A model generated the notes under the pieces. It was not told the DNA's origin and made no database searches. It worked only from the letters and a program-made list of their open reading frames with translations. A stretch of DNA of 40,372 bases from Pseudomonadota bacterium (lineage in GTDB: Bacteria; Pseudomonadota; Gammaproteobacteria; Ga0077536): NCBI GenBank assembly GCA_029977665.1, contig JAPOKK010000006.1, positions 1 to 40,372 on the forward strand, written 5' to 3'. Both the position numbers and the translations under genes were made by a program. This document shows positions 5,655 through 27,568 of the stretch, in pieces (position 1 is the stretch's first letter; each line of letters starts with the position of its first letter).

Positions 5655-6329
5655 ATGATGAGAAACAAGCTCGCGTTCGACGAGCAGCGCACTGTCTTCA
5701 ATGGCCGCGCCCTGCTCCTCGCCGCGCTCCTCGCGAGCGCGCTGATCTTCTCCGCCGGCAGTCATGCCGCCGCGATCTATGCCGATGACCTGGCGGGCGA
5801 CGAGCGCGTCACGACGTTCGAGGGCTTCGTCGGCTTTGACAGTTTCATCATCGTCGCCAACACCGGTCAGAAGTGGGACCACGACGACGCCCTGTTCAGC
5901 CACACGGGCACGTTTGCGGGACTCGGCCTCAGCACGCGCATCCCGCTCACCGGTGGCACCAACACGGTCATGCTCACGCAGGCTGCGGGTGCGGGAATCC
6001 TGGTGGAGTTCGATGTGCCGGTAGGCCTGGCCGGGGCCACCATCTTCGGCGATCGGACGACCGCGACGTTCTTCAATCAGTCCGGTGCGGTGCTCGGCTC
6101 GGTGACCAGCGACCTGTTCGCCAACCGGCAGTTCATCGGCTGGTCCGCCGACCCGGGTACGGGCTGGATCCAGAGCGTGTTGTTCGACGACTACTACCCG
6201 GCCGACAGCCGCGGTCTTGCCATCGACAACCTGGTGCGCGGCAACCCGGTGCCGCTGCCGGCGCCGGCACTGTTGCTCGGCGTGGGCCTCGCGGGACTTC
6301 TCGCACGGCGCCGGCGCCAGGCTGCCTGA
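5655..6329 (+). CDS. PEP-CTERM (VPLP-type) surface protein, 224 aa
   Basis: This is an exported protein with an N-terminal signal segment (residues about 15-37, LLLAALLASALIFSAGSHAA). It has a beta-rich body and a C-terminal sorting tail: VPLPAPALLLGVGLAGLLA followed by RRRR, i.e. motif, hydrophobic helix, basic end. Such tails are recognised and cleaved by exosortases. The body (TFEGFVGFDSFIIV, DNLVRGNPVPLP) resembles the PEP-CTERM proteins with a 'D-N-L' strand before the tail. AAGGGG sits 4-5 nt before ATG 5655; ATG 5658 is an equal alternative. A hairpin spans the stop codon. Its function on the surface or in the matrix is unknown. Confidence 0.8.
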   Translation: MMRNKLAFDEQRTVFNGRALLLAALLASALIFSAGSHAAAIYADDLAGDERVTTFEGFVGFDSFIIVANTGQKWDHDDALFSHTGTFAGLGLSTRIPLTGGTNTVMLTQAAGAGILVEFDVPVGLAGATIFGDRTTATFFNQSGAVLGSVTSDLFANRQFIGWSADPGTGWIQSVLFDDYYPADSRGLAIDNLVRGNPVPLPAPALLLGVGLAGLLARRRRQAA

Positions 6330-6337
6330 GGCAGCCT
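6319..6337 (+). terminator. Hairpin across the stop codon
   Basis: AGGCTGCC-TGA-GGCAGCCT is a perfect 8-bp inverted repeat whose loop is the TGA stop of the PEP-CTERM gene. It has no U-tract, so terminator activity is uncertain. Confidence 0.35.
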
Positions 6338-6453
6338 CGCCCGTGCGTCGTTCGGCGTGGACGGCGCACGCGACATGATGACCACGTGCATGGCGGTGGC
6401 CGTGCTAGGCTGCGGCCCGCACGAATCGACGTGCGTCGCAAACGGAGGTCTCC

Positions 6454-7422
6454 ATGGCGTTGAAACTATCGTGTGCTTTCGCCACTTCGCTCGATACGCC
6501 CGAGCATACCCGCATCGCCGAGTCGCTCGGCTACGAGCGGGCCTGGTACTACGATTCCCCGGCACTCTACCCGGACGTCTGGGTGCAGCTGTGCCGCGCC
6601 GCCGAGCGCACCGAGCGCATCGGCCTTGGTACCGGGGTGCTGGTGCCGCACCTGCGCCACCCGATGACCAACGCTGCCGCCATCGCGACGCTGGTCGATG
6701 CCGCCGGCGCCGAGCGTGTCGCGATCGGCATCGGCACCGGTTTCACTGCCTGCGTCAGCATGGGCCGGCGGCCGCTCACCTGGCGCTATGTCAACGAGTA
6801 CGTCGCGGCCCTGCGCGCGCTGCTGCGCGGGGAGGAGATCGAGTGGGACGGCGGCCGTGCGCGCATGATGCACTGGCCGGGATACGGTGCCGCGCGGCCG
6901 ATCGAAGTGCCGTTCGTATTCGCCGCCGGCGGTCCCAAGGGCATCGCGGCGGCAAAGGCGGCGGAAGGCGTGTTCGGTGTCTTCCAGCCGGTGCCGGATT
7001 TCGACTGGAGCGTCGTGCTGATCCTCGGCACCGTGCTCGATGCGGGTGAGTCGGCGGGATCGACGCGCGCGATCGAGGCTGCCGGCCATGCCGGAACCGT
7101 GATGTTTCACTATGCCGTCGAGCACAACATGCTCGACATGATCGCCGGTGGCGAGCAGTGGCTGGAATCCTACCGCGCGCTGCCCGAACAAACGCGTCAC
7201 CTGACCATGCACGACGGCCACCTGGTCGGCGTCAACGACCACGACCGGCCCTACGTCAACGGCGAGCTGCTCGCCGGCCACGGTCTGGCGATGGATCGCG
7301 GCGCCTGGCGCGAGCGGCTTGCCGCGCTCGCTGAAGGCGGTGCGACCGAGGTCGCCTACCAGCCTGCCGGCCCCGACATCCCGCGCGAACTCGAGGCCTT
7401 TGCGGACGCGGCGAACGGCTGA
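6454..7422 (+). CDS. Luciferase-like (LLM class) flavin-dependent oxidoreductase
   Basis: This 322-residue TIM-barrel oxidoreductase belongs to the bacterial luciferase / F420-dependent (LLM) superfamily. Typical features are RIAESLGYERAWYYDSP near the N-terminus, RIGLGTGVLVPHLRHPMTNA at about 65-85, and ERVAIGIGTGF at about 89-99. These enzymes use reduced FMN or F420; several known members are monooxygenases of terpenes, alkanesulfonates or cyclic ketones. The cofactor and substrate cannot be decided here. CGGAGG lies a few nt before ATG 6454. It is convergent with the MFS gene, with a strong hairpin between them. Confidence 0.85.
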   Translation: MALKLSCAFATSLDTPEHTRIAESLGYERAWYYDSPALYPDVWVQLCRAAERTERIGLGTGVLVPHLRHPMTNAAAIATLVDAAGAERVAIGIGTGFTACVSMGRRPLTWRYVNEYVAALRALLRGEEIEWDGGRARMMHWPGYGAARPIEVPFVFAAGGPKGIAAAKAAEGVFGVFQPVPDFDWSVVLILGTVLDAGESAGSTRAIEAAGHAGTVMFHYAVEHNMLDMIAGGEQWLESYRALPEQTRHLTMHDGHLVGVNDHDRPYVNGELLAGHGLAMDRGAWRERLAALAEGGATEVAYQPAGPDIPRELEAFADAANG

Positions 7423-7437
7423 GCCGCGTGTTTGGCG

Positions 7438-7464
7438 CGCCGCACGGCAGCAGGCCGTGCGGCG
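7438..7464. terminator. Bidirectional terminator-like hairpin
   Basis: Perfect 11-bp arms (CGCCGCACGGC and its complement) flank a 5-nt loop between the convergent LLM and MFS genes. The location and strength suit a shared terminator, but there is no T-run. Confidence 0.5.
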
Positions 7465-7469
7465 TGTGC

Positions 7470-8756
7470 TCACGAGACGCTGGCGACGTAGTCGAAGTCC
7501 TCGCGCATGGTGCGACTCGACAGCCAGTAGCAGAACGAGGCGAGCGCGTAGAACACCATGTTTACGCCGAGCAGCGCGTAGCGCAGCGATTCCTGGCCGT
7601 ACTCGGGGCGCAGCAGGTCGCTGATCCAACCGGTCGTCGCCGGCCCGCACATCAGCCCGATGATGTTGATGACGAAGAACAGCACCGCCGCGGCGGTGAC
7701 CCGCATGCGTGGCGTGGCGAGGCTCTGCGAGGCGGCGAACGCCGGCGCCTGGTAGATCTGCCCGCACAGGCCGGGGATCATCAGCAGGCCGATCGCGAGC
7801 GGCGTGTACTCGCACAGGAACGCGGCCGCGGAGCCCGGCACGGCGATGGCCATCGAAATCATCGGCAGCAGGGCATAGGCGCGGCGATCGTGTTTCGCCC
7901 AGGCATCGGCGATGAAACCGCCGGCGAACGTGCCGACGCCGACGCCGCCGGCCATGATGAAGGCGGCCGCCTGGCCCTGCTGTACGGCGGACAGGCCGTG
8001 CGAGCGTTCCAGGAACAGGGCCAGCATGAACGACGTCGAGTAGGTCGCGAAGGCGTACAGGCCGGACGCCAGCGCGAGGTAGCGGAACGAGCGTCTTGCC
8101 CACAGGAAGGCGAACACCTCGCGTGCCGGCGGCAGGCTGCTCTGCTCCTGCCGCGGCGGCTCGCGCACGGTCAGCAAGAGCAGCGCGGCGACCAGGATGC
8201 CGGGCAGGCCGACGACGACGAAGGCCATGCGCCAGCCGATGATCTCGCGCAGGTAGCCGCCGGCGAGAAAGCCGATCACGATGCCGGCGGAAACTCCCAT
8301 CGAGTAGAGCGAGAGCGCGCCGCCGCGCTTCTCCGCCGGTACGTAGTCGCTGATCATCGAGATGGCCGGCGGACTGCAGCCGGCCTCGCCGATACCGACC
8401 CCCACGCGGCAGGCGAGCAGGGTGGCGAAACCCCGCGCGGCGCCGGACAGGGCCGTCATCGCGCTCCACAAGGCGACGCACACGGCCATCACCGTACGCC
8501 GCGGGTAGCGATCGGCGAGGCGTCCGATGGGGATGCCCATGGTGGCGTAGAAGATGCCGAACGCGGTGCCCGAGAGCAGCCCCAGGTGGACGTCCTCGAG
8601 TTCCAGCTCCTGCTTGATGGGCGATAGCAGGATGGCGAGGATCTGGCGGTCGATGAAATTGATCGTGTAGGCGAGGAAACACACGCCGACCACGTACCAG
8701 ACGTAGACATTGCTCGCCGCCGGCTGCGTCGGCGCTGCGCTCGCGGATGGCTTCAT
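7470..8756 (-). CDS. MFS transporter, spinster-like
   Basis: This is a 428-residue major facilitator with about 12 membrane helices. The loop motif GIPIGRLADRYPRR (about residues 70-83) is the MFS motif A between helices 2 and 3. GIGEAGCSPPAISMISDY (about 118-135) is characteristic of the spinster-type branch, which in proteobacteria is often beside catabolic genes for aromatic, steroid or terpenoid compounds. The chosen ATG ends at 8756 and has GAGGAG about 8 nt upstream; the frame is open further but that part is not membrane-like. Substrate unknown. It is divergent from the DMT transporter. Confidence 0.88.
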   Translation of the reverse strand: MKPSASAAPTQPAASNVYVWYVVGVCFLAYTINFIDRQILAILLSPIKQELELEDVHLGLLSGTAFGIFYATMGIPIGRLADRYPRRTVMAVCVALWSAMTALSGAARGFATLLACRVGVGIGEAGCSPPAISMISDYVPAEKRGGALSLYSMGVSAGIVIGFLAGGYLREIIGWRMAFVVVGLPGILVAALLLLTVREPPRQEQSSLPPAREVFAFLWARRSFRYLALASGLYAFATYSTSFMLALFLERSHGLSAVQQGQAAAFIMAGGVGVGTFAGGFIADAWAKHDRRAYALLPMISMAIAVPGSAAAFLCEYTPLAIGLLMIPGLCGQIYQAPAFAASQSLATPRMRVTAAAVLFFVINIIGLMCGPATTGWISDLLRPEYGQESLRYALLGVNMVFYALASFCYWLSSRTMREDFDYVASVS

Positions 8757-8988
8757 CGGGCCGCTCCTCGTGGTGTCACGGATGGCGGGGGAGACACCCT
8801 CGGAGTCTCGCGCGGTCGCCAATGGCGCCGATGATAGCGCCGTCAGCGTCGAGTGCGTGCGTCCGCCGCCGGCCGTGCGCCGCCGCGTGACGCTCGGGGC
8901 GTCGTTTTTCCGGCTGCGGTGGCGCGTGGCAGCACACGCCGGTGATTCGGGCGACAATGCACCGCTTTCCCGTCAGCCGGAGCCTGCC

Positions 8989-9912
8989 TTGGAACTCGTC
9001 TGGATTCCCATCAGCGTGTTCGCCGCGCTCATGCAGGCGATTCGCACCGCCGCGCAGAAGACACTCAACCAGCGCATGTCGACGATGGGCACGACCTACG
9101 TGCGGTCATTCGCCGGCCTGCCGTTCCTGGTCGTCTTCCTCGTCGCCGTGCTCGGCATCGAAGGCGGTGCCGCGCCCGACTGGCAGCCCGCGTTCTTCCT
9201 CCTCGCGGCAGCCGGCGCGCTGACCCAGGTGGTCGCGACGGCGCTGCTGATCAAGCTCTTCACGCTCAAGACGTTCGCTGTCGGCAGCATGCTGATCAAG
9301 AGCGACATCCTGATGACCGCGCTGATCGGCACGCTGTGGTTCTCGGAGGATCTCTCGCCGCTCGGCTGGCTCGCGCTGCTGGTGGTCCTCGCCGGTGTGC
9401 TGTTTCTGCTCGGCGCGCGTTTCGGGCCGCGTGCCATCGCGCCCGGCGAGGAGTCGGTCGGCGGCTTGCTGCGCGGGCGGGCGACGCGCGTCGCGCTGGG
9501 CTGTGCGCTGATGTTCTCGTTCTCCTACCTGTTCGTGCGCGAGGCGACGCTCGCCATCGGCCCCGGGACTTTTCTCTGGCGCGGTGGCTGGACGGTAGTG
9601 ACGGTCACGGGCATGCAGGTGGTCGCCCTCGGCGCCTGGCTGCTCGTCACCGAGCCGAGGGTGTTCACCCAGTTGTGGCCGAACCGCGGCCTGGTCGGCT
9701 TCATCGGCCTGACCAGCGCGCTCGGATCGATTGGCTGGTTCACCGCCTTCGCGCTCGAGAACGCGTCCTACGTACGGGCAGTGGCGCAGGTCGAGGCGGT
9801 GTTCACCATCCTCATCTCGTGGTTCTATTTCCGTGAGTCGGTGCGGCGCATGGAGCTTGTCGGCATCGTGACGATGATCGTCGGCGTGCTGATGTTCCGG
9901 CTGGTCGACTAG
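8989..9912 (+). CDS. EamA/DMT-family transporter
   Basis: This is a 307-residue membrane protein with about ten hydrophobic helices in two halves, as in the drug/metabolite transporter superfamily. The second half contains FIGLTSALGSIGWFTAFALE and then YVRAVAQVEAVFTILISWFY with FRESVRRMELVGIV, matching the EamA repeat end. The start is probably TTG 8989 (LELVWIPISVF), because no ATG lies in the right place and GGAG is about 6 nt upstream. The long open extension to 8710 overlaps the divergent MFS gene and has no family likeness. Substrate unknown. Confidence 0.82.
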   Translation: MELVWIPISVFAALMQAIRTAAQKTLNQRMSTMGTTYVRSFAGLPFLVVFLVAVLGIEGGAAPDWQPAFFLLAAAGALTQVVATALLIKLFTLKTFAVGSMLIKSDILMTALIGTLWFSEDLSPLGWLALLVVLAGVLFLLGARFGPRAIAPGEESVGGLLRGRATRVALGCALMFSFSYLFVREATLAIGPGTFLWRGGWTVVTVTGMQVVALGAWLLVTEPRVFTQLWPNRGLVGFIGLTSALGSIGWFTAFALENASYVRAVAQVEAVFTILISWFYFRESVRRMELVGIVTMIVGVLMFRLVD

Positions 9913-13188: not shown

Positions 13189-13974
13189 TCAGCCGACGCG
13201 TCGCCGCATGAAGCCGAGACCGGCCAGCGCGCCGCCGATCAGCGGCAGGCTCGCGGGCAGCGGTACGGGCTGCGCCGTGACCGTGATCGTCGCAAGCGAC
13301 TCGTAACTCGAGAAATCGAGCGCCGAGACATCCACGCCACCGAGGTTGAGATAGGCGAGGTAGTCGCTGCCGAGCGCCGCGGTGATGACGCCGTTTTCGT
13401 CCGCGCCCTGGTTCGGGCCGTTCTGTCCGCCGGGAATGCCGAACAGGCCATTGGCCGCCGAGGTCGCGAAGTCGTTGACCTCGGTACCTGCATCCCACAC
13501 GCGCACGACATCGACGCTCACGCGTCCGAGCGTGCCGTCGAGCAGGCCGCCGAGCGCGACGGCGAGCGGGTTGTCGTTGCCGATGAAGAAGTCCGAACTC
13601 GGCAGCACCATTGCGGCGAAGGACAGGAACGAGGCCGAGCCATCCTCACCGACGGTGAACTGCGCGCTGGCGCTGGTGCCGGGCGCGATCGGTGCGCCGC
13701 CGACGAGCCCGCCGACGCCGCCGAATGACGCGCCCAGGGGCATCGCGTTGCCGTCTTCGGCGATGGCCTCGATACCGGCGCTGGCAGGGCTGCCGGCATC
13801 GAACGCGTCGAAGCTGCCGTCGTGGAAGCCGACCCATAGCGGCGTCAGCCAGGTGCCGCCGGTCGGTGCGTTGTTGGTGATGGTGACTTCGACCTGCGCC
13901 GCGTGCGCGGTCGCCGTCAGCGTGGCCAGGCCGAACAGGGCGGCGAGGCGTGTGACCCTCTGGTTGATTCGCAT
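13189..13974 (-). CDS. Spondin-domain PEP-CTERM (VPLP-type) protein
   Basis: This 261-residue exported protein has a signal peptide (residues 1-23, RLAALFGLATLTATAHAA). It then has a spondin_N-like domain: VEVTITNNAPTGGTWLTPLW, VGFHDGSFDAFDAGSPAS and GIEAIAEDGNAMPLG are classical for this family. The C-terminus is VPLPASLPLIGGALAGLGFM followed by RRRVG, a PEP-CTERM-type sorting tail. AAGGAGAG precedes the ATG ending at 13974. It lies downstream of sigma and nrsF on the same strand. Its own upstream region carries a copy of the motif found before the sigma gene, which suggests it is a target of that sigma factor. Its surface function is unknown. Confidence 0.87.
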   Translation of the reverse strand: MRINQRVTRLAALFGLATLTATAHAAQVEVTITNNAPTGGTWLTPLWVGFHDGSFDAFDAGSPASAGIEAIAEDGNAMPLGASFGGVGGLVGGAPIAPGTSASAQFTVGEDGSASFLSFAAMVLPSSDFFIGNDNPLAVALGGLLDGTLGRVSVDVVRVWDAGTEVNDFATSAANGLFGIPGGQNGPNQGADENGVITAALGSDYLAYLNLGGVDVSALDFSSYESLATITVTAQPVPLPASLPLIGGALAGLGFMRRRVG

Positions 13975-14055
13975 CGTTCTCTCCTTGTCGAAACGGATGT
14001 CTGCGTGGTGGTGACAGCCCGCGACACGCTCGGTGCCCACGGCCTGTTACCTCGC

Positions 14056-14086
14056 AATACGCAGCCCGTGGCGGAAACGATGCGCG
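14056..14086 (-). promoter_or_regulatory. Putative ECF-sigma promoter, copy 2 (spondin gene)
   Basis: On the plus strand the 31-nt element reads AATACGCA, two bases, CCGTG, three bases, GAAACGATGCGCG. It matches the element at 15350-15380 in all conserved blocks and in total length. Read on the minus strand the outer blocks would be the -35 (CGCATCGTTTC) and -10 (TGCGTATT) regions. It lies about 82 nt before the spondin gene start and just after the nrsF stop. Confidence 0.6.
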
Positions 14087-14088
14087 GC

Positions 14089-14733
14089 TCAGCGTGTGCG
14101 CAGAAAGCGCGCGCCGGCAGCCATGCCGAGGCCACCCAGTGCGAGGCCCGGCAGGAGATGGAACAAGAAATTGTGTGCCGGCTCGTAGAGGCAGGCGAGC
14201 TGCATGAGCGTTGCCGCGAGTGCGCCGGCGCCGAGGCCGAGGGCGAGGCCATTGACGGCACCGCGCAGTGGCCAGCGTCGCCGCGCGAGCCACAGGAGAA
14301 CGACCAGCGGTGGTGTACCTGCTAGCAGCACCTCCCAGATGCAGCCGGAGCGTTTGCCGAGCATCGACACCGTCAGTGCCGGTTCGGCGAACGCGTAGAG
14401 GTTGAGCGCGACCCACGCGCTCAGTGCCGTCAGTGCCGGCGCGAGGCGTCGCCACGGCGAGCCGAGCGCGGGCACGGCGAGCGCCAGGCCCCCGGCGCAG
14501 AGCAGGGCGGCACTCGCGATCCCTAGCGCGGTCTCGAGCGCGAAGCGCGGCGCGACCAGGAGCTGCCCGAGGAAGCCGGGGCGGAAAGGTTGCACGAGGA
14601 GATAGCAGGTGGTCACGAACCCTGCCGCCAGCACGAGCCAGGCAAACGTCGGCGTCGCGACGGGCGCACGGCGCCGCACCGGCGCGAGATCGTCGACCAG
14701 GCTCGTGATGAGTCGATCGCGGGGCAGGGTCAT
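14089..14733 (-). CDS. nrsF: NrsF-type (DUF1109) anti-sigma membrane protein
   Basis: This 214-residue protein has six hydrophobic helices and a short cytoplasmic N-terminus (MTLPRDRLITSLVDDLAPVR). This is the layout of NrsF/DUF1109, the inner-membrane anti-sigma factor that holds an ECF sigma factor inactive until stress. It carries conserved-looking cysteines in membrane or loop regions (ATLMQLACLYEP, KRSGCIWEV), which in the studied family sense oxidants or metals. Its start overlaps the sigma stop by ATGA, so translation is coupled. Because the sigma gene next to it carries an amber codon, this anti-sigma may now lack its partner. Confidence 0.85.
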   Translation of the reverse strand: MTLPRDRLITSLVDDLAPVRRRAPVATPTFAWLVLAAGFVTTCYLLVQPFRPGFLGQLLVAPRFALETALGIASAALLCAGGLALAVPALGSPWRRLAPALTALSAWVALNLYAFAEPALTVSMLGKRSGCIWEVLLAGTPPLVVLLWLARRRWPLRGAVNGLALGLGAGALAATLMQLACLYEPAHNFLFHLLPGLALGGLGMAAGARFLRTR

Positions 14734-15290
14734 GTCGGTAATCCCTCGGCATCGAGCAGCTTGCGGATGGCGATCAATCCGCGCCGCAGGCGCGCCTTGA
14801 GCGCGGTTTCGGAAATGCCCAGCCACGCCGCGGCCTCGGCGGTCGTGCAGCCGGCGTACTGCGTGAGCGCGATGGCTTCGCGGTGGTCGGGCGCCAGGCG
14901 CTCGAGCACGCGTACGCCGTCGAGGCGCCGTGCCAGCGCGTCGATGTCGCCCATCGCCGGTGCCGCGTGTGCCGGCCCCTGGTCGCGCGCCCGCTGCGCG
15001 CGGCGCAACACGTCGATGGTTCGATGGCGCACGAGCGTGAACAGCCACGGCCGGAATGGTCGGGCGGGGTCGTAGGTGTGGCGCGCGTGGTGCACGGCGA
15101 GCAGGCATTCCTGCACGCAGTCCTCGAGCCCGACGATCGGACCGAAACGCACGCGGACATACGTCTCGATGGCCTGCGCCAGTTCCGCCAGCAGTGTGCC
15201 ATACGCGCCCTGGTCGCCGTCCTATGCACGCGCCATCCAGGCCGCCCAGCGCGCTTCGTCCGCCGCCCAGCGTTGCTCGTTCGTCGTCAT
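14730..15290 (-). pseudogene. ECF sigma factor gene with in-frame amber codon
   Basis: Read from ATG 15290, the frame codes MTTNEQRWAADEARWAAWMA, RA, then TAG (15222-15224), then DGDQGAYGTLLAELAQAIET and a complete sigma-70 region 2 and region 4. Region 2 is seen in DCVQECLLAVHHARHTYDPA with RPFRPWLFTLVRHRTIDVLR, and region 4 in LAPDHREAIALTQYAGCTTA with EAAAWLGISETALKARLRR. Without the stop it would be 186 residues, normal for the family. The amber stands where related proteins commonly have Gln, so one CAG-to-TAG change explains it. A truncated product could start at GTG 15152 but would lack part of region 2. Pseudogene, amber read-through or a sequence error are all possible. Confidence 0.8.
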
Positions 15291-15478: not shown

Positions 15479-15901
15479 GTGATCCCGGAATCAGCTTCCC
15501 CGCGGGCCTCGCGCCCCGCTCGCTCGCTACCCCCGGCGGAGCTCGCCGCCGGCGCCCTGCGGACGTTCTTCAATATTGCGGCCGCCTGGCGCCTCGATGC
15601 CGAGCAGGCGATGCGGCTGCTCGGGCTGAGCTCGCGCAGTACCTACTTCAAATGGAAAAAGGACCCGGCCGGCGCCCGCCTCACGCCGGACACGCTCGAA
15701 CGCCTGTCCTACGTGTTCGGAATCTACAAGGCGCTGCAGATCCTCCTGCCGCGTGCGGACGCGGCGGATGACTGGGTGCACCGGCCCAACGATGCGCCGC
15801 CGTTCAACGGCCGTCCGGTGCTGGAGCGCATGCTGGGCGGCCAGGTGGCCGATCTCTACGTGGTGCGCCAGTACCTCGATGCGCAGCGCGGCTGGTCGTG
15901 A
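15479..15901 (+). CDS. Xre/MbcA/ParS-type antitoxin
   Basis: This 140-residue protein begins at GTG 15479, the only suitable in-frame start. The N-terminal half holds a helix-turn-helix of the Xre-antitoxin type (AWRLDAEQAMRLLGLSSRST then YFKWKKDP, LTPDTLERLSYVFGIYKALQ). The C-terminal half is the toxin-binding MbcA/ParS (DUF2384) domain (NDAPPFNGRPVLERMLGG then VADLYVVRQYLDAQRGW). It neutralises the RES toxin encoded next and probably represses the operon through the palindrome just upstream. The stop overlaps the toxin start by GTGA. Confidence 0.88.
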   Translation: MIPESASPRASRPARSLPPAELAAGALRTFFNIAAAWRLDAEQAMRLLGLSSRSTYFKWKKDPAGARLTPDTLERLSYVFGIYKALQILLPRADAADDWVHRPNDAPPFNGRPVLERMLGGQVADLYVVRQYLDAQRGWS

Positions 15902-16596
15902 AGCCACCGCTCGCCCACGTGTGCTGGCGCCCCAGCTGGCGCCTGGTCTCGAGTCGATTCCCGCCGACGGGACTGTTCGACCGGGTCGCCGACCCGGCCG
16001 ATCTCGAAGCGGTGTTCCAGGTCGAGAGCCTGACCAACGATCGCCTGCGCGACGCCACCGGCGACATCGCGCTGGTACCCCCCGCCGACCGCGTCAGCGG
16101 CCCCGGCACGAGTCCGATCATGGCCGCTTTCACGCATCTCAACCGGCAGGGCAGCCGTTTCACGGACGGCAGCTTCGGTGTCTACTACGCGGCGTACTCC
16201 CTCGCCACGGCGATTGCGGAAACAGCCTGGCACCGCGGGCGTTTTCTCGCCGCGACGCGAGAGCCGCCGATCGAGATCGACATGCGCGCCTACGCCGCGG
16301 ACCTCGACGCCGAGCTGCACGACATCCGCGGCGAGCGCGCCGCCTGGCATAGCGTCTACGATCCCGATCCGGCAGCCTACGGTGCCGGCCAGGCCCTCGC
16401 GCGCAGCTTGCGTGAAGCCGGATCCAACGGCATCGTCTACGACAGCGTGCGCGACGCCGGCGGCGAGTGTGTCGCGGTCTTCCGCCCGCCGGTGCTCGGC
16501 CCGGCGCGCCAACGCGGTCACTACTGCTACGTGTGGGACGGCGAGGCGATTGTCGGCGTATACGAGAAGAAGGCGTACAAGCCGGTCTCTCGCTAG
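15898..16596 (+). CDS. RES-domain toxin
   Basis: This 232-residue RES-family toxin starts at GTG 15898, overlapping the antitoxin stop by 4 nt. Family marks are an N-terminal Arg (CWRPSWRL), GSFGVYYAAYSLATAIAETA with Tyr 96/97 and Glu 108, and SNGIVYDSVRDAGGECVAVF with Ser 183. These are the Arg/Tyr/Glu/Ser set of the ADP-ribosyltransferase-like fold. Studied RES toxins degrade NAD+ (MbcT, RES-Xre) or modify nucleotide-synthesis enzymes (ParT). All key positions appear intact, so the pair is probably functional. Confidence 0.9.
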   Translation: MKPPLAHVCWRPSWRLVSSRFPPTGLFDRVADPADLEAVFQVESLTNDRLRDATGDIALVPPADRVSGPGTSPIMAAFTHLNRQGSRFTDGSFGVYYAAYSLATAIAETAWHRGRFLAATREPPIEIDMRAYAADLDAELHDIRGERAAWHSVYDPDPAAYGAGQALARSLREAGSNGIVYDSVRDAGGECVAVFRPPVLGPARQRGHYCYVWDGEAIVGVYEKKAYKPVSR

Positions 16597-21599: not shown

Positions 21600-22493
21600 A
21601 TGAAGACCGCTTCCCAGCTACCCGCACTTCTACTGCTTGCAGCGCTCGGCTGCACCGCGCACGCCGGCGAGTTCCGTACCCTCGCCGCGCTCGAGGCCAG
21701 TGCCTCGGGCAGCCCCGGTGACGTGGCCAACCGTGGCTATCTCGAAGAGGCGTTGCGCATCGACAGCGTTCACGCTGCCGGGCCGGCCGGCAACAGCGCG
21801 AGCCTCGCCAGCCGGGTCGATTTCGCACGCGGCGCGCTGGCCATCGGTGGCGACTCGAACAACGCCTATGCGGCGGCGGAAGATCGCTACCTGGGAGCGA
21901 ACGCGACCGGTGTCGTCGCGCTGCGCGAGACCTTGAGCGTGGTCCTGCCCGCGGGTTTCTATGCCGACGCGCTCAGCGTGCGCGTGCCGACGCGCGTGAC
22001 CGGCTCCATCGCCACGAGCGGCCCGGCGGAGGGGCTGAACTTCGTCAACGGCCTGGTGCGCTGGGACCTGTCGCTGTTCAACATCAGCGGCGCGGGTGGG
22101 CCGGGCACCAGTCATACGAACGACACCGGTTTCGTCAGTCGTACCGACAGCATCGCGGTCAACGAGCTCGTCGACCTCGTCGCCGAACTGGTACCTGCCG
22201 GCACCGACCTGGCCGTGGACACGACGTTCGAGTTTCAGCTCGACGCGCAGCTCTGGGTCATCCGTAACGAGTCGTTCTCGCCGTTCGCGCCGAACAGCAC
22301 CGACGTCGACTTCGCCAGCACGCTGCGCTTCCTCGCCGTCGAGACCCCGTTCGGGCTGTCCTACGATTCCGCCTCCGGCGTGTTCCTGAGTGCCGTGCCC
22401 TTGCCGCCGGCCATCGCCGTCCTCGGCTTGCCGGTGCTGGTGTTAGCGCGCGCCGGCGTACGCCGGCGCGCTGTCAGGCCGGCCGCAGGGTGA
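21600..22493 (+). CDS. PEP-CTERM (VPLP-type) protein, 297 aa
   Basis: The signal peptide ([20 protein letters not shown] then HAGEF) and C-terminal tail ([20 protein letters not shown] followed by GVRRR) mark an exported, exosortase-type substrate. The body is beta-rich with Asn/Ser/Thr ([36 protein letters not shown]) and has no recognised domain. The tail is less regular than the others (a second Pro in the helix), so sorting is probable rather than certain. GGGAG lies about 9 nt before ATG 21600. The 3' end overlaps the convergent gene by 20 nt and includes a near-perfect palindrome. Confidence 0.72.
22448..22471. terminator. GC palindrome at convergent gene ends
   Basis: Arms of 11 bp (GCGCGCCGGCG-type) flank TA at the 3' end of the PEP-CTERM gene, just beyond the convergent gene's stop. 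It may terminate the minus-strand transcript. The minimal loop makes this uncertain. Confidence 0.3.
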
Positions 22494-24414
22494 CTTCGGT
22501 GCGGCCGTCGAGGGCGAGGTCGAGACGCGCGCGTCCCACCTCGTCGGCGCGCACCAGGCGTTCGCGCCCGCCTTCGTATAGGCGGTACTCGGCGCCCGGC
22601 CGCAGGCGTTCGATGCCGACGCGCTGCGTGCCCGCCCCACGTCCCGGGTAGAGCACGAGTTCGAGACCCGTGCCGTCGCTCCAGGCCTTGGCGACGAGCA
22701 CGTCCGGGTAGTTGGCCTCGGCGAGCAGCGGCCCGCGCCGCGTCGATTCCGGCGGCGGCGGGGTGAAGCTGCGACGGAAGTCGCCGCAGCGCATGAGTTT
22801 CGCCTCGATCGCCCACACGTTGGCCAGGTTGGAAGCCTCGCGGTAGCCGATCGCGCCGTCCTGCTCGTAACGTCCGCAGTCCTCGTCCATCGCGCGCAGC
22901 GCGGCGTCGGCCAGTTCGTCGTCACCGAACTCGCGCGCGCAGATGCCGACCGCGGCATAGGCGAAGAGCTTGCCGGGGCGGTAATGACCGGGGTCGATGG
23001 TGTCGATGAACGACATCGCCTCGCGCGGAATGCTCAGGCGCGTTTCGCCGGCGGCGTTCTCGGCGAGGCAGAACGCGAGTTCCTTGCGGCCGACCGCCCA
23101 TAGCCGCCGCGCGAGTGCTGGCGAGAAGACGTTGGCGAAGAAGGCGAAGCCCGCCTCGCCGTTGTAGAACGGCATCTCGAGGCCGGTCCAGTACGAGCGC
23201 AGGCCGACGATCGATCCCTTGCCGTCGACGAATTCGCGCTCGAGCATGTCCAGCCATTGCGGCAGCACCGCCTGTACATAGCGGCTGCCGAACACGGCGT
23301 CGTGCGCGGCGAGCGAACCCATGCCGTACATGTTGCACACCGGGTAGACCCAGTTCGGCTCGCACGGGTAGAGGCAGTAGTCGGAGCGCCGATGATTCGC
23401 CGCGACCGATTCGGCCAGCGTATGCGCGTCGTGCGCGTAGGCGGTGCGCTCGTTGAGACGGAACGTCAGGCTGCCGGGTTCGCCGTAGCGGCGGTCACCG
23501 GAGTTCAGCATGTACTGGTTGACGTGCATGCCGAACCAGCCCGTCAGCATGATGTTGTCTTTCGCGGCCGGATCGAAGTTCGAGAAGTTGAAGTGTCCCC
23601 ACATCGACTCCAGCACCCAGTAGTCCCACACGCGTTTGATCAGGTAGGTCTCGATGAGATTGCGCTGGGCCTGGCCGAGGTAGCCGCTGAAGCTCGGCGT
23701 GTAGAGGCCCTGCACCATGCCGAGCGCGAAGCCGAGATGATTGATCTGGTAGCGCAGCGCGGCAGGCTGGAACTGATCGATGATGGTGTAACCGGCGTAT
23801 TCGCCGACCGGCTGCAGGGCGCGGTCGAGCGCATAGCGCACGGCGCCCAGCTGCGCTTCGCTGAGTTCGCGCGCGGCCATCTCGGGCGTTGCTGCCGCGC
23901 GTTCGTTGACCTCGCCGATGGATTCGGCGAAGAAGCCTTCGCGTGCAGCGAGGCGTGCGGCGTCGGCAACGCGGCGCTGGTATCCGCGGTACTGCAACCA
24001 GGCGAACACGGCCGCCGCGGCCGCAGGCGCGAGCCAGGCCGCCGGCGGCCACACACTGGGGCCGGCGAGCGCGCCGGCGAGCGCCGCGGCGCCGAGCCAC
24101 ACGCCGAGCGGGGCTACCACCATGCCGGCCCAGAACCAGGCGATTATCGAGAGCCAGAACAGGCCGAGCGTGAGGGGCAGCAGCAGCAGGTGCCAGCCGC
24201 CGAGGGCAATGAAGCCGGCACCCGGCAACAGCAGACCGAGTCCCGCGGCCTGCCAGGCGGGGGCGAGGCCGAGCCAGCTCGGCGCGAGGCCGAGCAGTGC
24301 CAGCGCTCCGTAGATGAGCGCATTGCGGCGGTGACGTGCGGCCGTGACCGGCCCTTTCGTGCCCGATGGCAGCCCGAAGGTGCGTCCGAGGACTTCGTTT
24401 TCGATGACCGACAT
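22474..24414 (-). CDS. Linalool dehydratase/isomerase-like membrane protein
   Basis: The product is 646 residues starting [18 protein letters not shown]. Residues about 30-140 form four or so membrane helices. The remaining soluble part resembles linalool dehydratase/isomerase (Ldi) of Castellaniella. Shared features are [76 protein letters not shown], and above all [11 protein letters not shown]. That last motif places Cys 351 and Cys 360 nine residues apart, as the catalytic pair Cys171/Cys180 of Ldi. Ldi interconverts linalool, geraniol and myrcene. The homologue may act on an unsaturated alcohol, but membrane fusion and distance leave the substrate open. GGGGAG precedes the ATG; a small membrane-protein gene lies just upstream. 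Confidence 0.75.
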
Positions 24415-24476
24415 GTGCTCTCCCCGTGCTTGTCTGCGTGTTTGTGCTGGCAGCCTGATAACGACCCGTCGTGCGC

Positions 24477-24788
24477 TCAGGTTTCGCCCGTGTTCGTCGC
24501 GCGCCAGCGGCACAGGTCGCGCGCGTAGTCGGTCATGCCGAATACGGCCGCACCGATTTCGTGACCGATGTGCGAGCGATGTTGGTAGACGTAGGTACCG
24601 GCGGCGCCGGCCTCGAAGGCGATGATCGCGAGCAGTGCGACGCGCACCGCGGGGCGCGTCAGCCAGGCGCGCAGGCGCGTCGCGGCCTGACCGGCGCGGC
24701 GTGGCGCGAGCCCGAACCAGGCGCGCAGGCGCTGCCAGGCATGGATGACCTGCCAGGCGAGGGCGAGTGCGATGACGCAGCAGGTCAT
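24477..24788 (-). CDS. Small membrane protein, 103 aa
   Basis: Two hydrophobic segments are visible, at residues about 1-14 ([14 protein letters not shown]) and about 48-68 ([20 protein letters not shown]). An Arg-rich loop lies between them, and a polar tail ([20 protein letters not shown]). No family is recognised. It is on the same strand 62 nt upstream of the Ldi-like gene, so the two may be co-transcribed and the products may associate in the membrane. The ribosome-binding site is weak, so the start is uncertain. Confidence 0.55.
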
Positions 24789-24959
24789 GGGTCGCGTCGT
24801 GCTCGCGCTTGCCTGCCGGGCGTCATGGTCATAGCGGGATCCTCCCCTCGGATCGCCGGCTCGTCCCGGTGAGCGAGCCTATGGTCAACCTTAGACCAAC
24901 AGGTGCGGCAATGGGAAGCGAGCGCGTGCGCCGGGCTGCTCGACGATTGGTCTCGCCGG

Positions 24960-25047
24960 GCGCTTGCCAGGCGCTTGCCAGGCGCTTGTCAGGCGCTTGT
25001 CAGGCGCTTGTCAGGCGCTTGTCAGGCGCTTGTCAGGCGCGCGTCAG
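24960..25047. repeat. 11-bp minisatellite, eight copies
   Basis: Unit GCGCTTGTCAG is repeated head to tail: two copies read GCGCTTGCCAG, five are identical, and the last reads GCGCGCGTCAG. On the minus strand each unit supplies a TGA. The array overlaps the last codons and stop of the cupin gene. The rest of the 24789-25032 gap shows no gene. Confidence 0.95.
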
Positions 25048-25425
25048 CTCGGTGACATCGAAGTCTTCTGCGAGGCGTACGAACAGCAGGCGTGCCGGGC
25101 CCTCGAGCACCCGTGTGCGGTGGCCGCGACCCGTGGTGTCGTCGGCGAAGAACAGTCCGCCGGGACCCCACTGGCGGCAGGCGCCGTCGGTCGTTTCCAC
25201 TTCGAGGCGGCCGCTCAGCACGGCGACGAGCTGGCGGTCGGGCGCGTTGTGCCAGTCCTGGTCGAGATTGGCCGGCAGGCTCGCGAGCAGGCAGTCGGCG
25301 GCGAAGCTGCGCGAGAGCGCGAGGACATGACCGAAGGCATCGGTGCGCGAATCGGGCCAGGCAAGCTCGAGGTCTTCGAAACGCGAACCCTGGTCGTGGG
25401 TGGTGACGAAACGGGTGATGCGCAT
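25033..25425 (-). CDS. Cupin-like protein, 130 aa
   Basis: The product starts MRITRFVTTHDQGSRFEDLE. It has a cupin/RmlC-type jelly roll: NLDQDWHNAPDRQLVAVLSG, then RLEVETTDGACRQWGPGGLF, then DTTGRGHRTRVLEGPARLLF. The H-x(n)-G and G-x-G-H patterns suit a metal or ligand site (WHNAP and GRGHRT). It lacks a signal peptide. It lies 3' of the AraC regulator on the same strand (37 nt gap). Its last residues (LTRA) and stop are encoded by the 11-bp tandem repeat, so its C-terminus can change with copy number. Confidence 0.75.
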   Translation of the reverse strand: MRITRFVTTHDQGSRFEDLELAWPDSRTDAFGHVLALSRSFAADCLLASLPANLDQDWHNAPDRQLVAVLSGRLEVETTDGACRQWGPGGLFFADDTTGRGHRTRVLEGPARLLFVRLAEDFDVTELTRA

Positions 25426-25462
25426 GGAATCGATCCTGTGAGGGGGAGCGCACCGCGGTCGG

Positions 25463-26506
25463 TCACCGCGGTGCGTCACCGCCATTGTCCTGTCGCCGCG
25501 CACGATACCGGCCAGGCGACACGCCGCACCAGCGCTTGAACGCCTTGCCGAAGTTCGCCGCGTTGTCGAAGCCGAGCGCGGCGGCGACTTCCTTGATGGT
25601 GATGCCCTCGTTGCCGAGCAGTTCCTGAGCGCGCGTGCGCAGGAACTCGTCGGTGATCGCCTGGTAGCTGGTGCCGAGACGACGCAGGCGCCGGATCAGC
25701 GTGCGCGGCGTGACGTGCAGCGTCTGCGCGACGTCGCTCAGCGTCGGCAACGGCCGGCGCCTGTTGCCGTCCTCGAATGCCCGGCACAACTCGGCGCGCA
25801 GCATGCCGAGGGTGTCGCGCTCGCGCGAAGCGGCCATCGTCGCCGTGCATTGCGCGAGCGCGTGGGACCAGGTCGACTCGATGTAGCCGAGGTTGGGCAA
25901 CTCGCGCCAGGTGGCCGGGATGACGAGCCCCGTGCTCGCCGCGTCGTGTTCCACCGGGCAGCGGAAATGCTGCGCCGTGCGCGCCGCGTAGGGCGTCGGC
26001 GGGTAGTCGAGCAACACGCGCATCTCGCCCGGGTCGATGGCATAGACGGCTTCGAGATGGTGCTGGAGGATCACCAGCGGGGTCTCGAGCAGCAACGGTC
26101 GGCACTCGCCGAGCTCGATCAGCGGGCACAGCTCGGCGATGAAGTGCTCATCCTCGCTACGTCCCTGCATGTGCAGGTAGGGCACGCGGCCCGGAAAGAA
26201 GCGCAGGAAGGTATCGAGCCCGGCGCCGAGGGTCGGCGCGCTGACCAGCGCGATGCTGAGCGGCCCGTGGAAGTGATCGGCCAGCGAGCGCGCCCAGTCC
26301 AGGTGCCAGTCGGGGGTGCTCGCGAGTGCGAGCGTGTTGCGGATGTATTGCAGGGCCTGGCGCACGCTGATGCGGCTGTCGGGACTCGCCAGGTCGGCCG
26401 CGGTCAGGCCGGTGCCGGCGAGCAGCGCCTGCGGTTCGAACAGGCGCACGAGATGGCGGCCGTAAGTGGCCGGCATGGGCAGCTCTTCGATTGCGCGCGG
26501 ATCCAT
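25463..26506 (-). CDS. AraC-family transcriptional regulator
   Basis: This is a 347-residue regulator with the N-terminal ligand-binding region of the type often called Arabinose_bd (OruR/GadX-like). A C-terminal AraC HTH follows: LSDVAQTLHVTPRTLIRRLR with RLGTSYQAI, then ITIKEVAAALGFDNAANFGK and AFKRWCGVSPGRYR, the classical two-helix signature. The N-terminal region (FEPQALLAGTGLTAADLASP, LADHFHGPLSIALVSAPTLG) suits sensing of a small hydrophobic molecule. Starts at ATG 26506 or 26476 are possible, and GTG 26539 lies inside a palindrome. It is divergent from the epoxide-hydrolase-like pair and upstream of a cupin, so it probably controls one or both. Confidence 0.88.
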   Translation of the reverse strand: MDPRAIEELPMPATYGRHLVRLFEPQALLAGTGLTAADLASPDSRISVRQALQYIRNTLALASTPDWHLDWARSLADHFHGPLSIALVSAPTLGAGLDTFLRFFPGRVPYLHMQGRSEDEHFIAELCPLIELGECRPLLLETPLVILQHHLEAVYAIDPGEMRVLLDYPPTPYAARTAQHFRCPVEHDAASTGLVIPATWRELPNLGYIESTWSHALAQCTATMAASRERDTLGMLRAELCRAFEDGNRRRPLPTLSDVAQTLHVTPRTLIRRLRRLGTSYQAITDEFLRTRAQELLGNEGITIKEVAAALGFDNAANFGKAFKRWCGVSPGRYRARRQDNGGDAPR

Positions 26507-26530
26507 CGAGGGGCCGGGCTCCGGGAGGAC

Positions 26531-26556
26531 TGTCACCAAAGTAACAGAATTTGTCA
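26531..26556. promoter_or_regulatory. Candidate AraC operator
   Basis: TGTCAC-CAAA-GTAACA (26531-26546) is an imperfect inverted repeat. TGTCA recurs at 26552, 21 nt from the first TGTCA, i.e. two helical turns. It lies in the divergent region 25 nt from the AraC start. This is a weak pattern-based call. Confidence 0.35.
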
Positions 26557-26716
26557 GGGCCGTCTCTTGGGGCGCGCAGGCGCGATGACTAGCTTATGCC
26601 CTCCACGGCGGTGCGAGCGCACCGCGCACGCGGGGGAGGTCCGAGGCGACGGCACGCGAGCCGCAGCCGACGCCCGGCCGCGTGTTCTCATCTGACACGA
26701 AATCCGGGGGTTTCCC

Positions 26717-27130
26717 ATGACCGAAGCCGAGAAGGTCGCACGCAACGTCGCCGTCGTGCGCCAGTTCATCGATGCCTGGGGCGCTATCGACGTCGATGGT
26801 GCGATGGCCTGCCTGTCCGACGACATCGAGTACATCAATCAACCGCTCGAACCGGTCTGTGGGCAGCAGGATGTCCGCAAGATCGTCGACGGCATCATGC
26901 AGCTCTCCAAGCGCGTGCACTGGGAACTGCGCAACTGCTTCGGGCGCGGCAACGTGGTCGTCACCGAACGCCTCGACTGCTGGGACTTCGACGGCCGCGG
27001 ATGGGGACTCAAGCTGCCCTGCATCGGCATGTTCGACGTCAACGACGCCGGCAAGATCTGCGGCTGGCGTGACTATTTCGACAACCGGATGTGGTTCGAG
27101 AACGGCGGCCCCACGCTGCACCTCGACTGA
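26717..27130 (+). CDS. Limonene-1,2-epoxide hydrolase family protein (first of tandem pair)
   Basis: This is a 137-residue NTF2-fold enzyme with the full catalytic constellation of Rhodococcus limonene-1,2-epoxide hydrolase. EYINQPLEP gives the Tyr and Asn that hold the water, TERLDCWD gives the Arg-x-Asp pair, and GWRDYFD gives the second Asp. Order and spacing match the known enzyme. It is therefore a good candidate for an epoxide hydrolase adding water to a cyclic or terpenoid epoxide. It is cytoplasmic. It is divergent from the AraC gene and 21 nt before a paralogue. The ATG has only a weak GGGGG ahead of it. Confidence 0.85.
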   Translation: MTEAEKVARNVAVVRQFIDAWGAIDVDGAMACLSDDIEYINQPLEPVCGQQDVRKIVDGIMQLSKRVHWELRNCFGRGNVVVTERLDCWDFDGRGWGLKLPCIGMFDVNDAGKICGWRDYFDNRMWFENGGPTLHLD

Positions 27131-27151
27131 GTCTGACCGGGAGACATCGAC

Positions 27152-27568
27152 ATGACCAAACAAGACGACAGGATTGCCCGCAACGAAGCCGCCGTACGCG
27201 CTTTTCTCAAGGGCTGGGACGACCTCGACGTCGACGCCTGCATGGCACAGATCACCGAAGACATGTGCTACCTCAACCAGCCGCTGGAAGCGATCCGCGG
27301 CAAGGACAACGTGCGCAAGATGATCGCCTCGATTTTCGCACCGGCCAAGCGCTGCAAGTTCGAACTCAAGAATCTCTTCGGCCACGAGAACAAGGTCATC
27401 ACCGAGCGTGTCGACCGCTGGGACTGGACCGGCAGCGGCACGTGGGAACTCGAACTCAAGGTCTGCGGCATGTTCGAGCTGACCGAGAACGGCAAGATCA
27501 TCGAGTGGCGCGAGTACTACGACAACGAGGACTGGACGAAGAAAGGCGGCCCCAGCCTCGTCCTCTGA
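27152..27568 (+). CDS. Limonene-1,2-epoxide hydrolase-like paralogue (Asp to Glu)
   Basis: This 138-residue protein is clearly related to the preceding one; they align along the whole length without large gaps. CYLNQPLEA keeps Tyr and Asn, and TERVDRWD keeps Arg-x-Asp. The last motif reads EWREYYD, so the Asp equivalent to Asp132 of the Rhodococcus enzyme is Glu. The change may alter or reduce epoxide hydrolysis, or fit a different substrate. GGGAGA lies upstream of ATG 27152. The pair may be a heteromer, since NTF2-fold hydrolases dimerise. Confidence 0.82.
   Translation: MTKQDDRIARNEAAVRAFLKGWDDLDVDACMAQITEDMCYLNQPLEAIRGKDNVRKMIASIFAPAKRCKFELKNLFGHENKVITERVDRWDWTGSGTWELELKVCGMFELTENGKIIEWREYYDNEDWTKKGGPSLVL

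Follow-up and report, generated by a model that had tools for sequence, protein, structure and literature searches.

To our knowledge, two enzymes that shift an allylic hydroxyl group from a tertiary to a primary carbon have been characterised, and linalool isomerase (Lis) is one of them. The enzyme of Thauera linaloolentis, a linalool/geraniol isomerase (EC 5.4.4.4), was identified by mass spectrometry after its linalool isomerase activity had been enriched; this activity is found in the inner membrane and requires a reductant, and the protein has 644 residues, with four transmembrane (TM) helices in the first 139 and a cytosolic catalytic part (PMC4791888). When lis alone was expressed in E. 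coli, the product was located in the membrane yet was inactive (PMC4791888). The soluble linalool dehydratase/isomerase (Ldi) of Castellaniella defragrans works when made in E. coli (PMC6600392). Here we analysed a stretch of 40,372 nucleotides of gammaproteobacterial DNA (contig JAPOKK010000006.1, positions 1 to 40,372; "the window" is this whole stretch), which carries a lis-type gene and, upstream of it, a small gene for a protein that starts with M-x-C-C. We call this protein MxCC and propose for it the role of a dedicated partner of Lis in the membrane. The two genes are laid out as follows.

22474 to 24414, minus strand: lis-type gene, 646 residues (PF18566, E 1.9e-87)
Lis domains: N-terminal membrane domain, residues about 22-145; (alpha,alpha)6 Ldi catalytic domain, about 220-530; C-terminal beta domain, about 563-645
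23335 to 23364, minus strand: [10 protein letters not shown] motif, Lis residues 351-360, located by alignment to the Ldi structures
24477 to 24788, minus strand: MxCC protein, 103 residues, [13 protein letters not shown]..., 62 bp upstream of lis

Judged from its sequence, the Ldi-domain protein of the window is a Lis-type protein and a new predicted member of the known membrane-bound linalool isomerases. In a full-length comparison it was 64% identical to Lis of T. linaloolentis 47Lol (residues 1-645), and both proteins have the same catalytic cysteines and the same architecture, a four-helix membrane domain followed by the catalytic domain. The putative TM region of the window protein is marked by hydrophobic segments within residues 32-142 and by N-terminal helices in the AlphaFold2 (AF2) model (pLDDT 89.9). 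The top PDB fold matches of this model were all C. defragrans Ldi (E 2.5e-11, TM-score 0.71 over the Ldi length). Ldi (5G1U, 5HLR) shares the fold of the catalytic domain and the CEP...C cysteine pair with the window protein, in which Cys351 and Cys360 match the catalytic Cys171 and Cys180 (PDB numbering; Cys170/179 in the papers); both cysteines were invariant in an alignment of 38 Lis-type homologues. The assignment to the Lis type thus combines an Ldi domain with both cysteines, an N-terminal multi-TM region in a protein of about 645 residues, and full-length homology. The soluble, periplasmic Ldi of Castellaniella is only about 20% identical to the window protein, which does not belong to that group, as it has a membrane domain and an Ile at position 101 of the capping disulfide Cys48-Cys101 (Cys48 falls outside the alignments). 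An earlier note on this DNA had claimed an Ldi-like membrane enzyme, and the PF18566 match, the CEPN...C-type motif and the membrane domain bear this out; it had also regarded the combination of genes as an unrecognised one, but the membrane-type enzyme is the known Lis (PMC4791888). The window genome encodes a second Lis (type B, 39% identical) on another contig, C165. The gene at 21600-22493, which encodes an exported protein with a VPLPP-type sorting-like tail (PEP-CTERM-like), runs convergently to lis, with 20 bp of overlap at the 3' end of lis.

MxCC accompanies Lis-type enzymes across Proteobacteria and Actinomycetota, encoded upstream, downstream or in trans. Relatives of Lis were gathered by a scan of GTDB genomes, which gave 43 named loci, T. 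linaloolentis 47Lol included. In the first neighbourhood comparison, the 103-residue open reading frame (ORF), which had been overlooked in the earlier note, was the only close-range neighbour common to Lis loci of other genera. An iterated hidden Markov model (HMM) found MxCC homologues in 27 of the 43 loci, from Gamma-, Beta-, Alpha- and Deltaproteobacteria, and short ORFs with the same motif were seen beside lis in 10 more, giving 37/43 in all. The homologues found with the HMM were on the lis strand and mostly less than 220 bp upstream, and in several alphaproteobacteria MxCC abutted or overlapped the lis start. The distance was 7.7-9.3 kb in Thauera and Steroidobacter; at both Thauera loci MxCC was 7.7 kb upstream, in the same gene array as carboxylase genes. 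The T. linaloolentis gene cluster likewise encodes an MxCC protein (L060:1923-2303), not described before; its lis adjoins atuC/atuF-type carboxylase genes, whereas the window lis stands apart from such genes. At type-B lis loci and in mycobacteria a shorter ORF of 43-54 residues with the same start was found in the same place. In three other actinobacteria, a CtaG-like gene is overlapped at its end by an ORF of 24-27 residues (MACCVLIAxAIASxRR), which lies about 1 kb downstream of lis, and the same arrangement was seen in R. opacus with a micro-ORF of 36 residues and a Pfam-confirmed CtaG gene. The short-form pattern had a background of about 8 spurious matches in 721,634 bases, both strands counted, so that about 0.4 would be expected near lis by chance, and 27 were observed. 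In five of the six remaining loci (L053, L054, L062, L058, L065) the genome encodes MxCC elsewhere or the contig is broken.

Several further observations were made beside the short forms. The gene that follows the actinobacterial Lis genes and whose end overlaps the MACC micro-ORF of 24-36 residues is of the Caa3_CtaG type (L092:12062-12936, L093, L094, L147:8594-9534; Pfam-confirmed in L147). The plasmid collection has no gene entry for the R. opacus micro-ORF. Mycolicibacter (L082:4559-11902) has two copies of lis with a MACC ORF for each, and between them an SDR, a His-rich membrane protein and an aldehyde dehydrogenase are encoded; this array looks like the alcohol-to-acid steps after isomerisation.

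MxCC is a real protein under protein-level selection. The dN/dS values were 0.21 for the window and its sister species, 0.21 for the two Thauera, 0.33 for two Novosphingobium, and 0.11 and 0.075 for short forms. The protein starts with M-x-C-C, which is followed by a hydrophobic helix and a basic segment; the window protein has two hydrophobic helices, and the whole size range is from 24 to about 250 residues. Cys3 and Cys4 were invariant in the alignment, and Met1, Arg49 and the C-terminal Cys93 nearly so. The AF2 model had a pLDDT of 78 and a pTM of only 0.38. The distances of MxCC and Lis were correlated (r 0.81, 0/2000 permutations). The window MxCC fits the family as we define it here: M-x-C-C start, hydrophobic helix, basic segment, and a genome with a Lis-type enzyme. 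It gave no Pfam or NCBIfam match and no sequence or fold relative in the PDB; a place in a known family was rejected, as there were just isolated sub-threshold matches among 27 members, and a link to CtaG was too weak to be used (one member, PF09678, E 0.0012). No earlier description of MxCC was found in the part of the linalool isomerase literature that was covered, and this companion is apparently undescribed. A micro-ORF of 24-54 residues, easily skipped in annotation, tracks an enzyme family across phyla, and can serve as a marker in the search for further enzymes of this kind, among them those of actinobacteria, which have no assigned activity.

Co-occurrence was then followed across whole genomes. 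Among 96 relatives, MxCC was present in all 10 genomes with an intact type-A lis and in one of the 86 others; the Fisher test for co-occurrence gave p 1e-11, with G025, whose lis lacks residues 1-289, counted as lis-positive. MxCC and lis were on separate contigs in G014 and in Nevskia. G014 and G020 keep MxCC at a PGP-RPE neighbourhood, where G006 has MxCC together with lis, and because the two lis genes of G014 lie elsewhere, it seems that MxCC is able to act in trans. In a set of 201 genomes of the Novosphingobium family (sphingomonads), all 12 membrane-type lis genes, from 10 genomes, had an adjacent MxCC, either upstream or downstream, and the lis-less genomes of this set gave no MxCC HMM hits at E 1e-6. 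The copy numbers of MxCC and lis also agree, being 2/2 in G102 and G146. In G195, MxCC is fused to a DgkA-like domain.

An out-of-sample test was performed on 18 actinobacterial loci, 17 of them new. An M-x-C-C ORF was found near lis at 16, 14 of which were recognised by a preset filter and two on inspection, as the filter demanded more basic residues; the exceptions were L210 and L216. At L213, L217 and L223, Lis is without a TM region of its own, and the MxCC ORF is extended to 209-246 residues with further hydrophobic segments. The five soluble Ldi-type genes examined (L134, L135, L144, L149, L150) had no MxCC. The long actinobacterial MxCC proteins (L213:4776-5516, L217:4536-5249, L209, L212, L223) have in common a DMHxxxLF...FHG-like motif, which may bind metal and is located in the hydrophobic part that they have gained, and a SCO1/SenC-type gene follows the soluble Ldi-type genes of L134, L135 and L150 (Pfam-confirmed in L150).

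The reading that we prefer is that positions 22474-24788 of the window form a two-gene module of MxCC and lis, in which Lis would isomerise a prenyl-type alcohol and MxCC would be its accessory subunit; we put the probability of this at roughly 0.65. Lis in the inner membrane would accept linalool or another prenyl alcohol like it, in either case a hydrophobic tertiary allylic alcohol, the Lis cysteines would move the hydroxyl to the terminal carbon by acid/base chemistry, and dehydrogenases would then oxidise the resulting primary alcohol. The hydrophobic N-terminal helix of MxCC, with its Cys-Cys pair, would dock in or beside the Lis membrane domain. Such docking is hinted at by the shortest MxCC proteins, which are little beyond the N-terminal helix and a basic tail, and a partnership by the hydrophobic extensions that MxCC gains where Lis has no TM region. 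MxCC may be needed for active Lis either structurally or through its Cys-Cys pair, which would maintain the reduced state of the catalytic thiols or provide them with metal. That native Lis needs reduction, that recombinant Lis alone is inactive and that soluble Ldi works in E. coli are consistent with such a role, and a required partner would explain the inactivity of Lis made alone in E. coli.

The SCO1 and CtaG families are associated with thiol and copper handling, and the presence of such genes as neighbours is suggestive of a possible redox or copper role of the MxCC cysteine pair. Put more generally, membrane-type Lis could be a two-component enzyme that requires the Cys-Cys microprotein as its membrane subunit, possibly thiol-reducing or metal-handling, a generalisation that we advance tentatively and hold to have slightly less than even odds. 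MxCC may be likened to small accessory subunits of the CydX kind, single- or two-helix microproteins kept with one large membrane enzyme; it differs from them in the Cys pair at residues 3-4 and in having an isomerase as partner. The reaction type of Lis is of interest for terpenoid and diene production, and the overlooked partner offers a direct and cheap way to ask why heterologous expression of Lis failed.

Several points weigh against the accessory-subunit reading. Misfolding has already been offered as the reason for the inactivity of Lis in E. coli. MxCC was present with no lis detected in G020, a fragmented assembly, and in turn there was no recognisable MxCC at the actinobacterial locus L210 or at L090, the one remaining locus of the 43, where the 5' part of lis was also not matched. 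At L220 a lis without a TM region is paired with a short MxCC, so the tie between MxCC and the membrane domain of Lis is not a strict one. The correlation of distances could come from shared descent alone. Finally, no clear orthologue of atuC was found in the window genome: the best match was 46%, the level of Thauera's own second carboxyltransferase.

This last point leaves linalool mineralisation through the Atu pathway in this organism unsupported, and it bears on the substrate. Going by the presumed class of reaction, linalool or a similar prenyl alcohol may be the native substrate of the window Lis. It is possible, although we consider it the less probable choice, that the enzyme acts on a larger isoprenoid (a prenol, a polyprenol or a sterol side chain) and not on linalool, which would be compatible with MxCC as accessory subunit. 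The missing atuC orthologue agrees with a larger substrate, as does the linalool dehydratase-isomerase-like step proposed for the conversion of 25- to 26-hydroxysteroids (PMC3691188). Lis-type genes also adjoin uppS and DgkA in Aureimonas, and MxCC is fused to DgkA in G195, but these cases are from divergent subfamilies (36% for Aureimonas), whereas the window protein is 64% identical to a verified linalool isomerase. For the divergent Lis types themselves, the neighbourhoods in Aureimonas and G195 suggest polyprenol-related substrates. In Aureimonas (L146:5772-8921) the order is uppS, the Lis-type gene, a MACC ORF of 38 residues and DgkA; in G195 (L138, reverse strand, 5888-9643) lis is followed by the MxCC-DgkA fusion and a B12-binding radical-SAM-like gene.

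It is rather unlikely that MxCC merely shares an operon with lis, makes no contact with Lis and has a separate function in the same pathway, such as substrate uptake, tolerance or membrane protection. Both are membrane proteins in a pathway of toxic lipophilic alcohols, and MxCC is sometimes unlinked to lis, as such a role would allow. Yet the shortest forms (24-27 residues) keep only the M-x-C-C helix and are too small for transport, there is one MxCC copy per lis copy, and the long hydrophobic extensions occur where Lis is without a TM region.

The earlier note had tentatively placed the Ldi-like gene in a shared terpenoid pathway with an AraC-controlled pair of genes resembling limonene-1,2-epoxide hydrolase (LEH) and with two flavin enzymes of the window, a Baeyer-Villiger monooxygenase (BVMO) and an LLM protein. 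The genes concerned are the following.

25033 to 25425, minus strand: cupin-like gene between MxCC and the AraC gene (weak PF07883), beside lis in the sister species only
25463 to 26536, minus strand: AraC-type regulator (PF12625/PF12833), part of the LEH unit and not of lis
26717 to 27130, plus strand: LEH1 (PF07858, E 3e-14), all five catalytic positions kept
27152 to 27568, plus strand: LEH2 (PF07858, E 2e-18), a paralogue of LEH1 (47%)
6454 to 7422: LLM protein
1 to 840: C-terminal fragment of a BVMO-type gene, truncated at the start of the contig

The divergent, AraC-linked pair proved to be real and conserved, with PF07858 in both genes. The known limonene-1,2-epoxide hydrolase (1NWW, 5AIF) shares its domain and nearly all of its catalytic residues with LEH1 and LEH2: Tyr53, Asn55, Arg99 and Asp101 are kept in both alignments, and Asp132 is kept in LEH1 and replaced with Glu in LEH2. 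The two differ from it in being two diverged copies that are always in tandem and in the Glu of LEH2. The proposed link to lis failed. When every window gene was searched by tblastn among the 43 Lis loci, LEH1, LEH2, AraC and cupin were found in the sister species alone, where synteny extends over the entire region at about 95% identity, so that the conserved neighbourhood by which the earlier note would have checked its proposal is absent. In eight further genomes of the family both LEH genes are close together on one strand (identity 74-85% and 74-82%), with a divergent AraC orthologue (61-68%) in seven of them, always on contigs other than the lis contigs, and in three of these genomes carrying the AraC-LEH1-LEH2 unit (G012, G015, G018) there was no Ldi match at all.

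AraC-LEH1-LEH2 is thus a separate conserved unit and a chance neighbour of lis. A single catabolic locus of Ldi, LEH pair, AraC, BVMO and LLM is very improbable: all these genes lie within 40 kb, monoterpene enzymes are known in both the Lis and LEH families, and BVMO and LLM adjoin the LEH pair in some relatives, but adjacency of Lis and LEH is restricted to the sister species, and the LEH genes run on the other strand, separated from lis by the cupin gene and AraC. Lis, LEH and AraC as one system were rejected on the gene neighbourhoods. Both flavin enzymes are present in the window, the BVMO only as a C-terminal fragment, whose best NCBIfam relative is the terpenoid BVMO PtlE (E 7.5e-76, far under its cut-off). 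The extra genes beside the LEH unit were a GST-like gene (three genomes), LLM (two) and BVMO (two), the BVMO lying directly beside LEH2 and being 72-75% identical to the window fragment, so the flavin-enzyme hint may apply to the LEH unit and not to Lis; an apparent enrichment of BVMO and LLM was also seen beside Lis. Since the LEH paralogues are always together in the divergent unit (window 25463-27568; L181-L188), one of them with Glu for Asp132, they possibly form a heteromer.

The least probable reading, MxCC as a cis-acting regulator of lis in the form of a leader peptide or an upstream ORF, would suit its usual place 0-216 bp upstream and the leader-like forms of 43-54 residues, but was rejected on account of the copies downstream of lis in several genomes and the unlinked ones on other contigs in G014 and Nevskia, and is also opposed by the distance of 7.7-9.3 kb in Thauera and Steroidobacter, by the two helices of the long form and by the protein-level constraint.

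Two other groups of genes in the window were noted. At 15479-16596 a RES-domain toxin gene follows a small gene, which is likely an Xre-RES toxin-antitoxin pair, and at 13189-15152 a sigma-factor-like gene, an NrsF-type anti-sigma gene and a gene for a Spondin_N protein stand in a row.

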